From Draconibacterium orientale (GTDB taxonomy: Bacteria; Bacteroidota; Bacteroidia; Bacteroidales; JAADGE01), in the NCBI GenBank assembly GCA_022729995.1, contig DZBS01000018.1, positions 1 through 39,873 on the forward strand: a DNA stretch of 39,873 nt. Direction: 5' to 3'. Below the pieces are notes generated by a model. The model saw only the letters and a program-made list of their open reading frames with translations. It was not told the origin of the DNA and made no database searches. How positions within the stretch are numbered: the stretch's first letter is position 1; every line of letters begins with the position of its first letter. Positions 9,218-16,097 of this stretch are shown piece after piece. Both the position numbers and the translations under genes were made by a program.

Positions 9218-11926
9218 TTATCTTAAATTTGCCTGAGCTGCAGCTAATCTTGCAATAGGCACTCTGTATGGAGAGCAACTAACATAATCTAAACCTGTTC
9301 TGTGACAAAATTCAACAGAAGAAGGTTCTCCGCCGTGTTCGCCGCAAATTCCCAGTTTAATATTTGGTCTTGTTTGACGGCCTTTTTTAACAGCCATTTC
9401 AACTAATTGTCCAACGCCTTCTTGGTCGAGAACTTCAAAAGGGTCGCTTTTTAAAATTCCTTTTGCAATATAAACGGGCAGGAATTTTCCTGCGTCGTCT
9501 CTTGAATATCCAAAAGTCATTTGAGTAAGGTCGTTTGTTCCGAAAGAGAAGAATTCTGCTGATTCTGCAATTAAATCCGCAGTTAAAGCTGCTCTCGGAA
9601 TTTCAATCATTGTTCCAACCAAATGTTCGATTTTATCGTTTCTTTCAGCAAATATTTTTGCAATTGTATCTCTAACAATTACTTCTTGCATTTTCATTTC
9701 GGCTAATGTTCCTGTTAAAGGAATCATAATTTCCGGAATTGCTTTAATACCTCGCTTTTTGAGATTTAATGCAGCCTCAATAATAGCACGAGTTTGCATT
9801 TCTGTAATTTCGGGATATGTGTTTCCCAAACGACAACCTCTATGACCCAACATTGGATTTACTTCCGATAAATCTTCAACTTTTTGTTTGATAATAGAAA
9901 CATCAACTTTCATAATATCAGCCATTTCTTTTTGTCCTTTATCATCATGAGGAACAAATTCATGCAAAGGCGGATCAAGTAAACGAACAGTTACCGGTAA
10001 GTCTTTCATTGCTTCAAAAATACCTTCAAAATCGGTTCTTTGCATAGGCAATAATTTTTCAAGAGCTTTTCTTCTTTCAGTTTCATTTTCGGCAAGAATC
10101 ATTTCACGCATTGCAACAATTTTTTCGCCTTCAAAAAACATGTGTTCTGTTCTGCAAAGACCAATTCCTTTTGCTCCGAATTCGCGAGCAACTTTTGCAT
10201 CGTGAGGTGTATCGGCGTTTGTGCGAACATACATTCTTGTATATTTATCGGCAAGTTCCATAATTTTACCAAAGTCGCCGCTTAATTCAGGATCTATTGT
10301 AGCAATTTTTCCGTCGTAAACTTCACCTGTAGAACCGTTTAACGAAATCCAGTCGCCTTCTTTATATAATTTCCCGCCGGTTTCCATTGTGCGAGCTTTG
10401 TAATTAATTTTTATTGAGCCTGCACCCGAAACGCAACATTTTCCCATTCCTCTTGCAACAACAGCTGCGTGAGATGTCATACCTCCGCGAGCGGTTAAAA
10501 TACCGTTTGCAATATTCATTCCTTCCAAATCTTCCGGAGAAGTTTCTATTCTGGCTAAAATTGAGTTTGGATATTTAGCGGCTTCGTCGGCAAAGAAAAC
10601 GATTTGACCTGTTGCAGCTCCCGGAGAAGCGGGTAAACCTTTAGCTTTTACTGAAGCATTTGCAACAGCCGATTTTTCAAAAATAGGGTGAAGTAATTCA
10701 TCTAATTTTTCGGGAGATTGTCTAAAAATAGCAGTTTTTTCGTCAATCATTCCTTCATTAAGCATATCAATTGCAATTTTAACCATTGCAGCACCTGTTC
10801 GTTTACCGTTTCGAGTTTGAAGCATCCAAAGTTTTCCTTCTTGAATTGTAAATTCAATATCTTGCATGTCTTTGTAATGTTTCTCAAGATTATTTTGAAT
10901 TTCGTTCAATTCTTTATATTGTGAAGGCATTCTTTCTTCTAATGAAGGATATTTATTTTTTCGTTCTTCTTCGGTAACTTGAGCTAAAATAGCCCAACGT
11001 AAAGAGCCTTCTTTTGTTATTTGTTGCGGAGTTCGAGTTCCTGCAACAACGTCTTCACCTTGAGCATCAATTAAATATTCACCGTTGAAAAGATTTTCGC
11101 CTGTTCCTGCATCTCTTGTAAAAGCAACTCCTGTAGCAGAATCTTGTCCCATATTTCCAAAAACCATTGCTTGAACATTTACAGCAGTTCCCCAATCTCC
11201 GGGAATTTTATTCATTTTTCTGTAGTAGATTGCTCTGTCGGTGTTCCAACTGTCGAAAACCGCCATAACAGCACCCCAAAGTTGATCCCAAGGGTTTGTA
11301 GGAAAATCGTGTCCGGTTTGTTTTTTTACGGCTGCTTTGAATTTTGTAACTAATTCTTTTAAATCTTCAACAGTAAAATCTGTGTCGTTTTCAACTCCGC
11401 GAGATTCTTTAAGTTCTTCCATAATTTCTTCAAACGGGTCGATGTCTTCTTTTGATTCTGGTTTCATTCCCAAAACAACGTCGCCGTACATTTGAACAAA
11501 TCTTCGGTATGAATCCCAAGCAAATCTTTCGTTACCGGTTTTTTTAGCTATTCCTACAACTGCATCGTCGTTTAATCCGAGATTAAGAACAGTATCCATC
11601 ATTCCGGGCATTGAAACTCTTGCTCCCGAGCGAACAGAAAGCAAACAAGGATTTTCGGAAGAACCGAAACTTGTGCCCATAATTTTTTCAACATATTTTA
11701 CGGCTGCTTCAACTTCCAATTTTAAAAACTCAACAGCTTTGTCTTTTCCAAGTTCATTATATTCGGTACAAACTTCGGTTGTAATTGTAAATCCGGGAGG
11801 AACAGGAACTCCTACAAGGTTCATTTCTGCAAGGTTTGCTCCTTTTCCGCCTAATAAATTTTTCATTTCTGCTTTACCTTCAGCTTGCTTATTACCAAAA
11901 GTATAAACTCTTTTCTTGTTAATCAT
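9218..11926 (-). CDS. ppdK: pyruvate, phosphate dikinase
   Basis: A 902-aa enzyme that interconverts pyruvate + ATP + Pi with PEP + AMP + PPi. In anaerobes it often works in the glycolytic direction to gain ATP from PPi. The nucleotide-binding N-terminal domain starts with LLGGKGANLAEM. The swivelling phosphohistidine domain contains GGMTSHAAVVARGMGK with the phosphorylated His. The C-terminal PEP/pyruvate barrel contains GICGEHGGEP with the catalytic Cys, followed by DYVSCSPYRVPIARLAAAQ. Length and motif order are normal for bacterial PPDK. It starts with ATG at 11926 and stands alone, diverging from the duplicated envelope-protein genes. Confidence 0.98.
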   Translation of the reverse strand: MINKKRVYTFGNKQAEGKAEMKNLLGGKGANLAEMNLVGVPVPPGFTITTEVCTEYNELGKDKAVEFLKLEVEAAVKYVEKIMGTSFGSSENPCLLSVRSGARVSMPGMMDTVLNLGLNDDAVVGIAKKTGNERFAWDSYRRFVQMYGDVVLGMKPESKEDIDPFEEIMEELKESRGVENDTDFTVEDLKELVTKFKAAVKKQTGHDFPTNPWDQLWGAVMAVFDSWNTDRAIYYRKMNKIPGDWGTAVNVQAMVFGNMGQDSATGVAFTRDAGTGENLFNGEYLIDAQGEDVVAGTRTPQQITKEGSLRWAILAQVTEEERKNKYPSLEERMPSQYKELNEIQNNLEKHYKDMQDIEFTIQEGKLWMLQTRNGKRTGAAMVKIAIDMLNEGMIDEKTAIFRQSPEKLDELLHPIFEKSAVANASVKAKGLPASPGAATGQIVFFADEAAKYPNSILARIETSPEDLEGMNIANGILTARGGMTSHAAVVARGMGKCCVSGAGSIKINYKARTMETGGKLYKEGDWISLNGSTGEVYDGKIATIDPELSGDFGKIMELADKYTRMYVRTNADTPHDAKVAREFGAKGIGLCRTEHMFFEGEKIVAMREMILAENETERRKALEKLLPMQRTDFEGIFEAMKDLPVTVRLLDPPLHEFVPHDDKGQKEMADIMKVDVSIIKQKVEDLSEVNPMLGHRGCRLGNTYPEITEMQTRAIIEAALNLKKRGIKAIPEIMIPLTGTLAEMKMQEVIVRDTIAKIFAERNDKIEHLVGTMIEIPRAALTADLIAESAEFFSFGTNDLTQMTFGYSRDDAGKFLPVYIAKGILKSDPFEVLDQEGVGQLVEMAVKKGRQTRPNIKLGICGEHGGEPSSVEFCHRTGLDYVSCSPYRVPIARLAAAQANLR

Positions 11927-12045
11927 TTTATATTATTTTTAATAAAAAAAAAACTTCCTTTAAGTTCGGTAAAAATATAAAAAAAAGCAATATTAAAAAT
12001 TTTTTGAAAAACTATTTTTAATAATTTTTTTCAATTTTGTTTTTA

Positions 12046-12053
12046 TAACTTTG
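12046..12053 (+). promoter_or_regulatory. -7 promoter box of first paralogue
   Basis: TAACTTTG matches TAnnTTTG and lies 36 nt before the start codon. The same box in the same context precedes the second copy. The -33 TTG is not evident in this T-rich stretch. Confidence 0.65.
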
Positions 12054-12088: not shown

Positions 12089-12691
12089 ATGAAAAAAATT
12101 ATTTTTCTTTTATTAACAGCAGTATTATTTACTGTTTTGAGTGGAAACGGAAGAAAAGAGGGAAGATATAAAATAGAAGCTGCTCTAATCGAATATGAAT
12201 TAGATATGATGGGAATGAAAGCCAAATCTTTTTTATATTTTAAAGATTACGGAAAACATCAGTGTATTGAAACTTCTATGGAAATGATGGGTCTTAAATT
12301 GGTAAACAGAACTTTGGAAATAGCCGGTTATACATATACTTTAAATATGAATGAAAAAACCGGAACAAAAATTAAAACTGTTGTTAACGAAGAAGAAATA
12401 GATCCTAATAATATGGATTTTGAAAATATGAGCGATGAAATAAAAACAAAATATAAAATTGTTGAGAAAGGAAATCAAGATTTTGCCGGAAAAAATTGTA
12501 AAGTTTTCGGAATGACAATTGAAGGACAAGATGCTTCATTTTTTGTTTGGAATAATATTCCTTTAAAATATGAAATGTCTCAAAACAATATGAGAATGAT
12601 TATGAAAGCTGTAAGAATTGAAGAAAATCCAAGTTTTCCTGCAGGTATTTTTGAAATTCCCGTTGATTTTAAAATAGAAGAAATCAATTAA
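12089..12691 (+). CDS. exported protein, first of a duplicated pair, lipobox lost
   Basis: A 200-aa protein of unknown function. It has an N-terminal signal sequence nearly identical to that of its neighbour (MKKIIFLLL.AVLFT), but the region with the lipobox Cys and the acidic linker is missing (FTVLSGNGRKEGRYK). It is therefore probably secreted or periplasmic, or held by an uncleaved signal, rather than lipidated. The conserved body has Met-rich parts (IEYELDMMGMKAKS, SMEMMG) and a tail KNCKVFGMTIEGQDASFFVWNNIP reminiscent of DUF4412/LolA-like beta folds, as an inference. The open frame is intact, so I do not call it a pseudogene. Confidence 0.75.
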   Translation: MKKIIFLLLTAVLFTVLSGNGRKEGRYKIEAALIEYELDMMGMKAKSFLYFKDYGKHQCIETSMEMMGLKLVNRTLEIAGYTYTLNMNEKTGTKIKTVVNEEEIDPNNMDFENMSDEIKTKYKIVEKGNQDFAGKNCKVFGMTIEGQDASFFVWNNIPLKYEMSQNNMRMIMKAVRIEENPSFPAGIFEIPVDFKIEEIN

Positions 12692-12769
12692 TATTTTTCT
12701 AAAACAAAAAAACAATTTTAAAAATTTTTAAAAAGCTATTTTTTATATTTTTTTTCGTTTTTGTTTTTA

Positions 12770-12777
12770 TAACTTTG
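12770..12777 (+). promoter_or_regulatory. -7 promoter box of second paralogue
   Basis: TAACTTTG lies 37 nt before the start codon at 12814, in the same context as the box at 12046. This supports separate transcription of each copy and argues against the longer start at 12775, which would overlap this box. Confidence 0.65.
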
Positions 12778-12813
12778 TATACTAAATTAATTATTTATCT
12801 AAACTATTTTTCT

Positions 12814-13491
12814 ATGAAAAAAATTATTTTTCTTTTATTAGCCGCAGTATTATTTACTTTTTCGTGTAAAGACGGTGGAAAAGACTCAAAAAATGAAAAT
12901 GACAGTTCGGTTACTGTTAACGGCGAATCCAACGAAAAAGGCGACGCAGTAAAATCGGAAGGCCGATATAAATTAAAAGCTGCTTTAATTGAATATGAAA
13001 TAGATATGATGGGAATAAAAGCCAAATCTACTTTATATTTTAAAGACTACGGAAAATTTCAATGTGTTGAAGCTTCAATGGAAATGATGGGCGTTAGCTC
13101 TGTTAACAGAACTTTGGAAATTGACGGTTATACTTATACATTAAACATGGATCAAAAAACCGGCTCAAAGATTAAATCTGTTGTTAACAAAGAAGATATG
13201 GACCCTAACGAAATGGATTTTGACAATTTGAGTGATGAAATTAAAACAAAATATAAAATTGTTGAGAAAGGAAATCAAGAAGTTGCCGGAAAAAATTGTA
13301 AAGTGTTTGGAATGACAATTGAAGGACAAGAGGCTACTTTTTATGTTTGGAATAATATTCCGGTAAAGTATGAGATGAACCAAAATAATATGACAATGAT
13401 AATGAAAGCTATAAGAATTGAAGAAAATCCAAGTTTCCCCGCCGGTATTTTCGAAGTTCCCAAAGGTTTTACTATTGAAGAAATAAAATAA
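12814..13491 (+). CDS. lipoprotein, second of a duplicated pair
   Basis: A 225-aa lipoprotein of unknown function. ATG at 12814 gives a clean signal MKKIIFLLLAAVLFTFSC with lipobox Cys18. The ORF track's start 13 codons upstream would bury this signal and overlap the promoter box. After the Cys comes a charged linker rich in Asp, Lys, Ser and Asn (about 19-49), then the body shared with the upstream copy, including GYTYTLNMDQKTGSKIKSVVNKED and VAGKNCKVFGMTIEGQEATFYVWNNIPVKYEM. The pattern of repeated beta strands resembles DUF4412/LolA-like lipoproteins, not proven. The glycosyltransferase gene follows 34 nt later. Confidence 0.8.
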   Translation: MKKIIFLLLAAVLFTFSCKDGGKDSKNENDSSVTVNGESNEKGDAVKSEGRYKLKAALIEYEIDMMGIKAKSTLYFKDYGKFQCVEASMEMMGVSSVNRTLEIDGYTYTLNMDQKTGSKIKSVVNKEDMDPNEMDFDNLSDEIKTKYKIVEKGNQEVAGKNCKVFGMTIEGQEATFYVWNNIPVKYEMNQNNMTMIMKAIRIEENPSFPAGIFEVPKGFTIEEIK

Positions 13492-13514: not shown

Positions 13515-13566
13515 AATACTCCGAAATGACAGCTTTTATTACAATAAGCATTATTTTCGGAGTATT
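13515..13566 (+). other. inverted repeat spanning the glycosyltransferase start codon
   Basis: aatactccgaaa (13515-13526) and tttcggagtatt (13555-13566) form a perfect 12-bp stem with a 28-nt loop. The left arm ends on the A of the ATG start. It could attenuate or terminate read-through from the lipoprotein gene, or mask the translation start. Confidence 0.5.
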
Positions 13567-14656
13567 TTATTTTATAATGATTTCTTCATTTATATTCGGA
13601 ATATTCTTTCCAAAAAAAAATCTGCCGTATAATCACAATCAATTTTCAGAAAAATCGGTGTTTATTTCTGTAATAATTCCTTTTAAAAACGAAGAGAAAA
13701 ATCTTGTAGATTTAATTTCCGGACTTAAAACCCAATCTCTTTCTTCGGATTTATTTGAAGTAATTTTTGTAAACGATTTTTCCGATGATTCTTCGGCTAA
13801 AATTCTCGCAAATCTAATTTTAGGAATAGAAAATTTCAAAATTATTAATTCAAAATACCGAACCGGAAAGAAAAATGCCGTAGGTGAAGGAATAGAAAAT
13901 TCAAAAGGAAATTTAATTGTAACAACAGATGCCGATTGTGAGCACGGAAAAATATGGTTGGAGAAAATCTATAATTTTTATATTGATTTTAAACCAAAAA
14001 TGATTATAGGTCCGGTAAAATTGACAGGCGAAACATTGTTTGAAAAATTTCAATCTCTTGAATATATGAGTTTATCGGCTTCAACCGAAGGTGCTGCAAA
14101 TATAAAACAAGCTTTTATGTGCAGTGCCGCAAACTTAGCTTTTGAAAAGGTAATTTATAATGAATGTAATAATTTATATAAAGAAAAATATGAATCGGGA
14201 GATGATGTTTTTCTTCTTCATAAAATAAAAAAAAAATATAGAAACGACATATTATTTTTAAATTCAAAAGATGCAATTGTTTATACAAAAGCTGAAAAAA
14301 AACTCAAAGGTTTTATAAATCAACGAAAAAGATGGGCAAGTAAAGCAAAAGGCTACAAAGATTCTGATGCTGTAATAATTTCGTTAATTGTAGCTATTTT
14401 TAATATCAATATAATTTTATTTGCAATTTTAACGGCAATTCATACATCATTTTTGTTTACATTCACTATAGTTTTTTTATTGAAAATAATTCCGGATTTT
14501 ATTATTCTTAATAAAAAATCAAAATTTTATAACTCGGGTAAATTGATGAAATTATTTTTACCGTTTTCAATTATTTACCCGTTTTATATATCTTCAATTT
14601 CAATTTTATCAATTTTTTCAAACAAACTAAATTGGAAATCGAAAAAGAATAAATAG
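13526..14656 (+). CDS. family 2 glycosyltransferase, membrane bound
   Basis: A 376-aa GT-A fold inverting glycosyltransferase that would use a nucleotide sugar at the cytoplasmic membrane. It has an N-terminal TM helix (about 3-28), then the GT2 core: SVIIPFKNEEKNL, nucleotide-binding FVNDFSDDSS, the metal-binding DxD motif in VTTDADCEHG, an acidic ESGDDVFLLHKI segment and the QRKRW motif of processive-type enzymes. Two or three TM helices close the protein (about 285-365). This layout is like cellulose- or hyaluronan-synthase-related and exopolysaccharide/glycolipid enzymes. The acceptor and sugar are unknown. It ends only 4 nt from the convergent gene. Confidence 0.88.
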   Translation: MTAFITISIIFGVFYFIMISSFIFGIFFPKKNLPYNHNQFSEKSVFISVIIPFKNEEKNLVDLISGLKTQSLSSDLFEVIFVNDFSDDSSAKILANLILGIENFKIINSKYRTGKKNAVGEGIENSKGNLIVTTDADCEHGKIWLEKIYNFYIDFKPKMIIGPVKLTGETLFEKFQSLEYMSLSASTEGAANIKQAFMCSAANLAFEKVIYNECNNLYKEKYESGDDVFLLHKIKKKYRNDILFLNSKDAIVYTKAEKKLKGFINQRKRWASKAKGYKDSDAVIISLIVAIFNINIILFAILTAIHTSFLFTFTIVFLLKIIPDFIILNKKSKFYNSGKLMKLFLPFSIIYPFYISSISILSIFSNKLNWKSKKNK

Positions 14657-14660
14657 AATT

Positions 14661-16097
14661 TTATTTCGAGATAATAATTTTTCCAAAGTAAATTTTATTG
14701 TCTGCTAAAACTTTAAGAATATAAATTCCGTTGTTTAAGTTTTTCAAATCAATACTTGTAACATTCTCATTACTAAACTGATTAAATATTTCTTTCCCTG
14801 AAAAATCAATAACTGAAATCATTTTATTGCCACTCAGTTTAAGAGTAAAATCTCCGGAAGAAGGATTTGGAAAAACATTAATTTCATTATTAACAATATT
14901 TTTTATCGCAACATTTTCGGTAACATTAACTGTCCATTCTTGCGAAAGCGGTAAAGTTTCGTGAGAAACAGTATAAACGACTGTTCCGGAAGAAAAATCT
15001 ACAGTTTGAGCAGATTCCGGTGAAATTTTAAAACCTGAATAAATAGTAATTATCGGTTTCAAAATAGATAAATCTGTTCCTTCATTTACAGATATATCAA
15101 CAGCATACAGCGGACTTCCTGTTATAACAGCATCTCCGATTTGCGATGTTAATACAAAAGATAAAATATCGGGAGTTGCATTTAGAACATTTACAGCCCA
15201 AGTTTTAGAAATCTTTCTTTTTTCATTAGTAACAGTGTAATTAACAGGTCCTGAACTAAAATCGACAGTTACGCCTGAGGCCGGAGAAATTGTATATCCT
15301 GCGGGAATAAGAATTTGAGGAGTTAAAGCGTTCAATTCGGTTTCGGCAGGCATAATAATTTCAATTTTAAAATCCGGAAAATTAACAATTTCTGTTTCAA
15401 TAATTTGAGTAGGAATATTGAACGATAAAATTTCCGGATCCGGATCCAAATATTCACCGTATACATTTGTAATCATCATCATATCCGGAAATAAAATTTC
15501 CGTAACATTAATTGGATTATCAACTCCGCAAAATGGTGCACGAATATATGTATTGTCTGTTTGTCCGACATTATTTGCACCAATGAAAAAAATATTTCCT
15601 TCGAGCGAATAATCCGGAACATAAACTTCTATTACCAATATTCTCCCTTTCGGAATAGTGATTTGTTGGGAAAGAGGAAAATTAATAACTTGTCCGGAAT
15701 ATTCATCAAGAATATTTACGGGCAATGTTCCGAGAAGAGTCAAACTGTCGAGTATAATTGACGATTCATACACACTCATTGTATAAAACTTCAATGAAAT
15801 ACTTTGAGAATTACCAACGGCTGCATCAGCTAAACCAATTCCTATATCGACACTTTGTACAACCCAATCGGAGTTTATATTGAAATAATTAAAAAGATCA
15901 AAAGCTCGATAATATGAATTTTCATAAGTTGCATGTGTAGTTGTAACATTGCATGCAAGTGCGTGAGAATTATCAATAATTTGACTTACAGAATGAGTAA
16001 TCATAAAACTTTTGGTTTGATTTTTTATTTCAAACTGAGCAAATAAATAATATCCTGTAAAAAGATGAAAAATTAATAAAATAAATAACTTTTTCAT
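14661..16097 (-). CDS. type IX secretion cargo protein with two DUF5018-like repeats
   Basis: A 478-aa secreted protein. A signal peptide ends near FAQFEIKNQ. The N-terminal region of about 200 residues looks like a jelly-roll-type beta domain. Two consecutive repeats follow: TPQILIPAGYTISPASGVTVDFSSGPVNYTV and a second with KPIITIYSGFKISPESAQTVDFSSGTVVYTV. They resemble the DUF5018 beta-sandwich seen in Bacteroidetes surface proteins. The end is a type A sorting domain: NVFPNPSSGDFTLKL, then LNNGIYILKVLADNKIYFGKIIISK. That signal directs export by the PorSS/T9SS machinery and attachment to the surface. Ligand or activity unknown. Confidence 0.88.
   Translation of the reverse strand: MKKLFILLIFHLFTGYYLFAQFEIKNQTKSFMITHSVSQIIDNSHALACNVTTTHATYENSYYRAFDLFNYFNINSDWVVQSVDIGIGLADAAVGNSQSISLKFYTMSVYESSIILDSLTLLGTLPVNILDEYSGQVINFPLSQQITIPKGRILVIEVYVPDYSLEGNIFFIGANNVGQTDNTYIRAPFCGVDNPINVTEILFPDMMMITNVYGEYLDPDPEILSFNIPTQIIETEIVNFPDFKIEIIMPAETELNALTPQILIPAGYTISPASGVTVDFSSGPVNYTVTNEKRKISKTWAVNVLNATPDILSFVLTSQIGDAVITGSPLYAVDISVNEGTDLSILKPIITIYSGFKISPESAQTVDFSSGTVVYTVSHETLPLSQEWTVNVTENVAIKNIVNNEINVFPNPSSGDFTLKLSGNKMISVIDFSGKEIFNQFSNENVTSIDLKNLNNGIYILKVLADNKIYFGKIIISK

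Follow-up and report, generated by a model that had tools for sequence, protein, structure and literature searches.

A tandem pair of envelope proteins with a predicted LolA-type fold and different predicted membrane anchoring in Draconibacterium orientale

The window analysed here, a stretch of 39,873 nucleotides of DNA from Draconibacterium orientale, contains two adjacent genes for closely related envelope proteins, of which one (copy 2) is a predicted lipoprotein while the other (copy 1) has a serine opposite the lipobox cysteine. Judged by the family tree, predicted anchoring has changed repeatedly, and this pair is a recent instance. As an event it is of a known kind, ordinary paralogue divergence; the added finding is the many anchoring switches across the family. 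The account that we favour, with moderate confidence, is that a lipoprotein gene of LolA/RseB type was duplicated, that copy 2 would be anchored and copy 1 exported unlipidated, and that the domains of both would bind ligand. Loci, genomes and contigs are referred to by our own L, G and C numbers. The genes, their folded domains and the downstream neighbour are:

12089..12691, + strand: copy 1, a Cys-less member of 200 aa, predicted to be exported without lipidation
12814..13491, + strand: copy 2, a 225-aa predicted lipoprotein
12158..12688, + strand: folded domain of copy 1, from the alignment
12955..13488, + strand: folded domain of copy 2, for which AlphaFold2 and Foldseek predict a beta half-barrel of LolA/RseB type
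13526..14656, + strand: GT2 membrane glycosyltransferase (DAD and QRKRW motifs), separated from copy 2 by 34 nt

The two copies lie head to tail as complete, uninterrupted ORFs, flanked by ppdK (9218-11926, - strand) on one side and by the GT2 gene on the other. Aligned over 177 residues (47-224 of copy 2), the proteins share 79% of their amino acids at E = 2.3e-96, a similarity far above chance and close to the 80% over 175 residues given in the preliminary description, which had also placed both ORFs correctly. As the start of copy 2 we took ATG 12814, which corresponds to the start of copy 1; the mechanical ORF list begins this gene at TTG 12775, which is unlikely because that codon falls on a -7-like box, TAACTTTG (12770-12777). 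At the DNA level the similarity reaches approximately 100 bp beyond the 5' end of each gene, and this region contains a 14-mer located 35-36 nt before the ATG in both copies:

12040..12053, + strand: promoter-like TTTTTATAACTTTG (contains TAnnTTTG), upstream of copy 1
12764..12777, + strand: promoter-like TTTTTATAACTTTG, identical, upstream of copy 2

We take the TAnnTTTG inside this 14-mer to be a Bacteroidota-type -7 box. Given the shared upstream region, the duplicated unit appears to be a whole transcription unit, with each copy having its own promoter-like region.

The principal differences between the copies are at the N-terminus, where three features are relevant:

12865..12867, + strand: TGT of copy 2, coding for Cys18 of FTFS-C, where lipidation is predicted
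12140..12142, + strand: AGT (Ser18) of copy 1, opposite the copy 2 lipobox Cys in the codon alignment
12868..12954, + strand: linker of copy 2, hydrophilic and charged (residues 19-47), 25 residues of which are absent from copy 1

Copy 2 has the basic start, hydrophobic stretch and lipobox Cys of a signal peptidase II substrate (MKK-IIFLLLAAVLFTFS-C), and its N-terminus, MKKIIFLLLAAVLFTFS-C, continues into a linker that is hydrophilic, charged and 29 residues long; the intact FTFSC lipobox and charged linker recorded earlier are thus both present. The N-terminus of copy 1, MKKIIFLLLTAVLFTVLSGNGRK, enters the domain directly, with neither lipobox nor charged linker; Ser18 occupies the aligned position and there is no Cys before residue 59, so that copy 1 does not qualify as a signal peptidase II substrate. 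The copies differ in length by exactly 25 residues (75 nt), and the 25-codon gap in the codon alignment starts after codon 23, separate from the Cys18/Ser18 pairing. Loss of the Cys by deletion is ruled out, since Cys and Ser align in a gap-free stretch. The preliminary description had copy 1 lacking approximately 26 residues including the Cys; the loss of the linker stands (25 residues), but the Cys was substituted (TGT vs AGT) outside the gap. Copy 2 is therefore a predicted lipoprotein, whereas copy 1 cannot be lipidated at the aligned position, and since it has no Cys there, the two copies should differ in anchoring. Surface export of lipoproteins in Bacteroidota is signalled by motifs such as C-X-K-(D/E)2 or a polar residue followed by acidic residues (PMC5080379); copy 2 reads C-K-D-G-G-K and does not match this motif, which may not be the signal of this lineage.

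Both copies look maintained under purifying selection, because dN/dS is well below 1: for the whole gene it is 0.24 (NG86; dN 0.113, dS 0.469), for the signal region 0.39 and for the domain 0.22, and other estimators give lower or somewhat higher values, all below 1 (domain 0.07-0.34). Together with the intact frames, this argues against both a decaying copy and an artefact. The assembly is fragmented (172 contigs), and the preliminary description had named a sequencing or assembly error in copy 1 as one finding that would overturn it. Such an error is hardly credible, however: approximately 21% of residues differ between the copies, synonymous and nonsynonymous differences occur throughout in a purifying pattern and with no frameshift, and the pair has unique flanks on both sides. 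We also consider it very unlikely that copy 1 is a decaying, functionless duplicate with a broken localisation signal. Its Cys and linker are gone, and a tandem pair of this kind occurs in no other genome examined, but the reading frame, the high identity, the low domain dN/dS and the retained promoter-like box all point the other way.

Of 295 genomes sampled from the order, 50 contain relatives of the pair; for the taxonomic family the count is 5 of 21. Nine named relatives came from a second contig scan, the first having yielded none; the named relatives are from metagenome genomes labelled Bacteroidales, Draconibacterium, Chlorobiota and Ignavibacteria. Among 55 aligned members, the lipobox Cys is present in 33 and absent from 22, start codons and lipobox classes having been called by a simple scripted rule, which may misclassify single members. 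Members with the Cys have a median of approximately 48 residues before the domain, versus approximately 26 for those without (Mann-Whitney p = 7e-7, ignoring kinship). The best tree of the 55 members, whose deep branches are weak, needs 13 switches between lipoprotein and non-lipoprotein (11-14 among bootstrap trees), of which at least 7 are imposed by well-supported branches. The window pair groups together with a support of 100/100. It is because of these switches that we regard the pair as one case of a recurrent change; a recent split in location, as originally proposed, is a fair reading of this pair but not a one-off in the family. The pair nevertheless provides a clean recent case, in which the predicted anchor is kept in one copy while anchor and spacer are lost in the other, with the folded domain preserved, and natural pairs allow the contribution of lipidation to a LolA-fold protein to be compared directly. 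Loss of the Cys and loss of the linker tend to coincide across the family; the association is strong before correction for kinship and has p = 0.125 after it, and with 3-4 usable independent pairs on supported branches, a correlated loss is not established. We also discarded an obligate pairing of soluble and lipidated paralogues, which is seen in approximately 6 of 10 multi-copy genomes when approximately half would be expected by chance. A second sister pair (L005 and L009, genome G003), located on different contigs, consists of a lipoprotein and a Cys-less member (FTYSS), and the latter, L009, has kept its linker despite the loss of the Cys.

The form that existed before the duplication was probably a lipoprotein, so that the change would have been from lipoprotein to non-lipoprotein. 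The nearest relative outside the pair, L004 (46%; the same gene as L069), is a lipoprotein that has FSCK in common with copy 2, and L015 has FTFSCK, exactly as in copy 2; the comparison with homologues that had been proposed for identifying the ancestral form therefore favours the lipoprotein. This direction is not certain, because in G017, where ppdK and GT2 have the same arrangement with approximately 6 kb inserted, the single family gene in this neighbourhood is non-lipidated. Such a gene would fit an ancestor that was non-lipidated and had no linker, with copy 2 gaining lipobox and linker after duplication, as would the shorter domain branch of copy 1 (0.07 vs 0.20). We consider this reversed order unlikely, since the lipobox of copy 2 is shared with L004 and L015, copy 1 does not have the Gln expected of an old signal peptidase I form, and a working lipobox plus a 25-residue linker takes more steps to gain than to lose. 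In addition, a relative-rate test by site counts found no significant difference between the copies. In G001, a genome of the same genus, the family is absent, as is ppdK, and the region may be missing from that assembly.

While copy 1 would not be lipidated, its release into the periplasm is likely rather than secure. In Bacteroidota, a Gln directly after the cleavage site is the rule for signal peptidase I substrates (PMC5837995). An [AGS]-Gln after the hydrophobic stretch is present in 19 of the 22 non-lipidated members but absent from copy 1, L009 and L047, and copy 1 has no Gln before residue 58; it is for this reason that release is not secure. These three members each group with lipoproteins on supported branches, and we read them as recent lipobox losses in which the standard site has not been acquired. 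The main rival to periplasmic release, which we consider possible but doubtful, is that the signal peptide of copy 1 stays uncleaved as an inner-membrane signal anchor, so that both copies would be membrane-tethered by different means. Besides the missing [AGS]-Gln, this would be in line with the S-Q or A-Q endings of the signals of other exported proteins seen in this genome and with the absence of the linker, which leaves the copy 1 domain close to the hydrophobic stretch. However, the uncharged stretch of copy 1 (16 residues, mean hydropathy 2.87) is short for a transmembrane anchor and typical of cleavable signals, being mid-range among relatives in which such signals are clear, and this is why release remains the likelier fate. 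Cleavage at VLS|G or GNG|R would fit the general -3/-1 rule. Moreover, in P. gingivalis the fraction of predicted signal peptidase I substrates with Gln exceeded 60%, so many substrates do without it (PMC5837995). The original claim that one copy is lipidated and the other released thus holds with regard to different anchoring (lipobox vs Ser18), but is less certain with regard to release.

What the domain might do is suggested by its predicted fold. Neither copy reaches the cut-off of any Pfam or NCBIfam profile; weak matches to glycyl-tRNA synthetase, pectate lyase and aminotransferase were below cut-off and were discarded. Profile matches of relatives indicate that the domain is distantly related to DUF4412 (Pfam PF14371), a group of exported proteins without known function for which a literature search found no paper: at E <= 0.1 the profile is matched by 11 of 24 relatives, the best with E = 7.1e-7, but neither copy matches at E <= 1, and both are below the curated cut-off of 21.6 bits. 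A model of the domain generated with AlphaFold2 from eleven sequences (mean pLDDT 88.5, pTM 0.82) has the curved antiparallel sheet and open half-barrel of LolA, LolB and RseB. The best solved structures retrieved by Foldseek are the LolA-LolB complex (8orn; E = 8.6e-8), RseB (3m4w) and Bacteroides LolA (4mxt), and the matches include Porphyromonas LolA, with TM-scores of approximately 0.5-0.65 at approximately 10% identity. The domain is thus predicted to have the LolA/LolB/RseB fold, which is that of periplasmic lipid and lipoprotein binders; the match is one of fold, not of function.

As with LolA and LolB, soluble and lipidated forms both exist in this family, but the window copies are close paralogues, which LolA and LolB are not, and have no detectable sequence similarity to either: the LolA profile (PF03548) matches neither copy nor any of 24 relatives, and the LolB profile (NF053559; 50 bits needed) matches neither copy. 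The pair is not the Lol carrier set of the genome, because separate genes for LolA (contigs C58 and C61) and LolB1 (C100) exist, none of which is detected by the family profile. The N-terminal domain of RseB/MucB is similar as well (TM-score approximately 0.6, and a weak profile match with E = 0.042 in one relative). RseB has a second domain, however, which the single-domain window proteins lack, and no RseA-like partner was seen in the window. A further parallel is the flexirubin operon of Flavobacterium johnsoniae, in which soluble and lipidated LolA-fold proteins, LolA2 and LolB2, are encoded together among biosynthesis genes (PMC11885536); the window pair has one biosynthetic neighbour only, the GT2 gene, and the likeness is one of description.

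That neighbour is conserved. In the window and in G017, G002, G082, G036 and G186, a related GT2 gene on the same strand comes directly after the family gene, the distance between them ranging from -63 to +65 nt; in G278 it is nearby. This gives seven genomes, the window included, in which GT2 follows the family gene. The GT2 protein resembles PgaC/IcaA and HpnB-type enzymes, far below their cut-offs. Because of this recurrent neighbour, gene order suggests a link of the family with a glycolipid or glycan, the first functional lead for a family otherwise without one.

In the mechanism that we propose, a lipoprotein gene of LolA/RseB-type fold, located upstream of the GT2 gene, would have been tandemly duplicated with its promoter. 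Copy 2, in which lipobox and linker would be retained from the ancestor, would be held in a membrane by an N-terminal lipid. In copy 1, the lipidated Cys would have become Ser and the linker that spaces domain from membrane would have been lost, with the folded domain staying under purifying selection; the protein would be exported without lipidation and most likely be free in the periplasm. The open half-barrel of both domains probably accommodates a ligand that is hydrophobic or amphipathic. A (glyco)lipid with a connection to the adjacent glycosyltransferase is a plausible candidate, and one copy would act at the membrane and the other in the periplasm. A lipid or glycolipid as the bound molecule is the guess that requires the fewest assumptions, given the LolA-type fold and a glycosyltransferase as partner. 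By analogy, loss of the anchor need not abolish function, because a soluble Cys17-to-Gly variant of LolB1, a LolA-fold lipoprotein, fully complemented the deletion in F. johnsoniae (PMC11885536), and both copies may be active in different places; a Cys17-to-Gly sialidase of Capnocytophaga was likewise described as soluble (PMC5080379). We see only a slim chance that the copies go further and form a soluble carrier and an anchored receiver for a glycolipid made by GT2, i.e., a LolA/LolB-like relay that evolved independently by a single tandem duplication. If so, the family would amount to a naturally occurring series of gains and losses of lipid anchor and spacer.

The neighbourhoods of family genes are envelope-related more generally. 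An LPG_synthase_TM-like gene lies upstream at two GT2 loci (L013 and L019), and a second recurrent setting, seen at L015, L016, L018, L058 and others, is next to a gene whose product is secreted and has an OmpA domain at its C-terminus. In the genome that carries the window, the LolA gene on C58 (L109) is located beside genes for a short lipoprotein and for ketosynthase-like and deacetylase-like proteins, surroundings that resemble an aryl polyene/flexirubin cluster. Within the window, the product of the gene at 14661-16097 (- strand) carries a C-terminal sorting domain for type IX secretion (PF18962), and in G017 a gene for a similar protein adjoins the GT2 gene.
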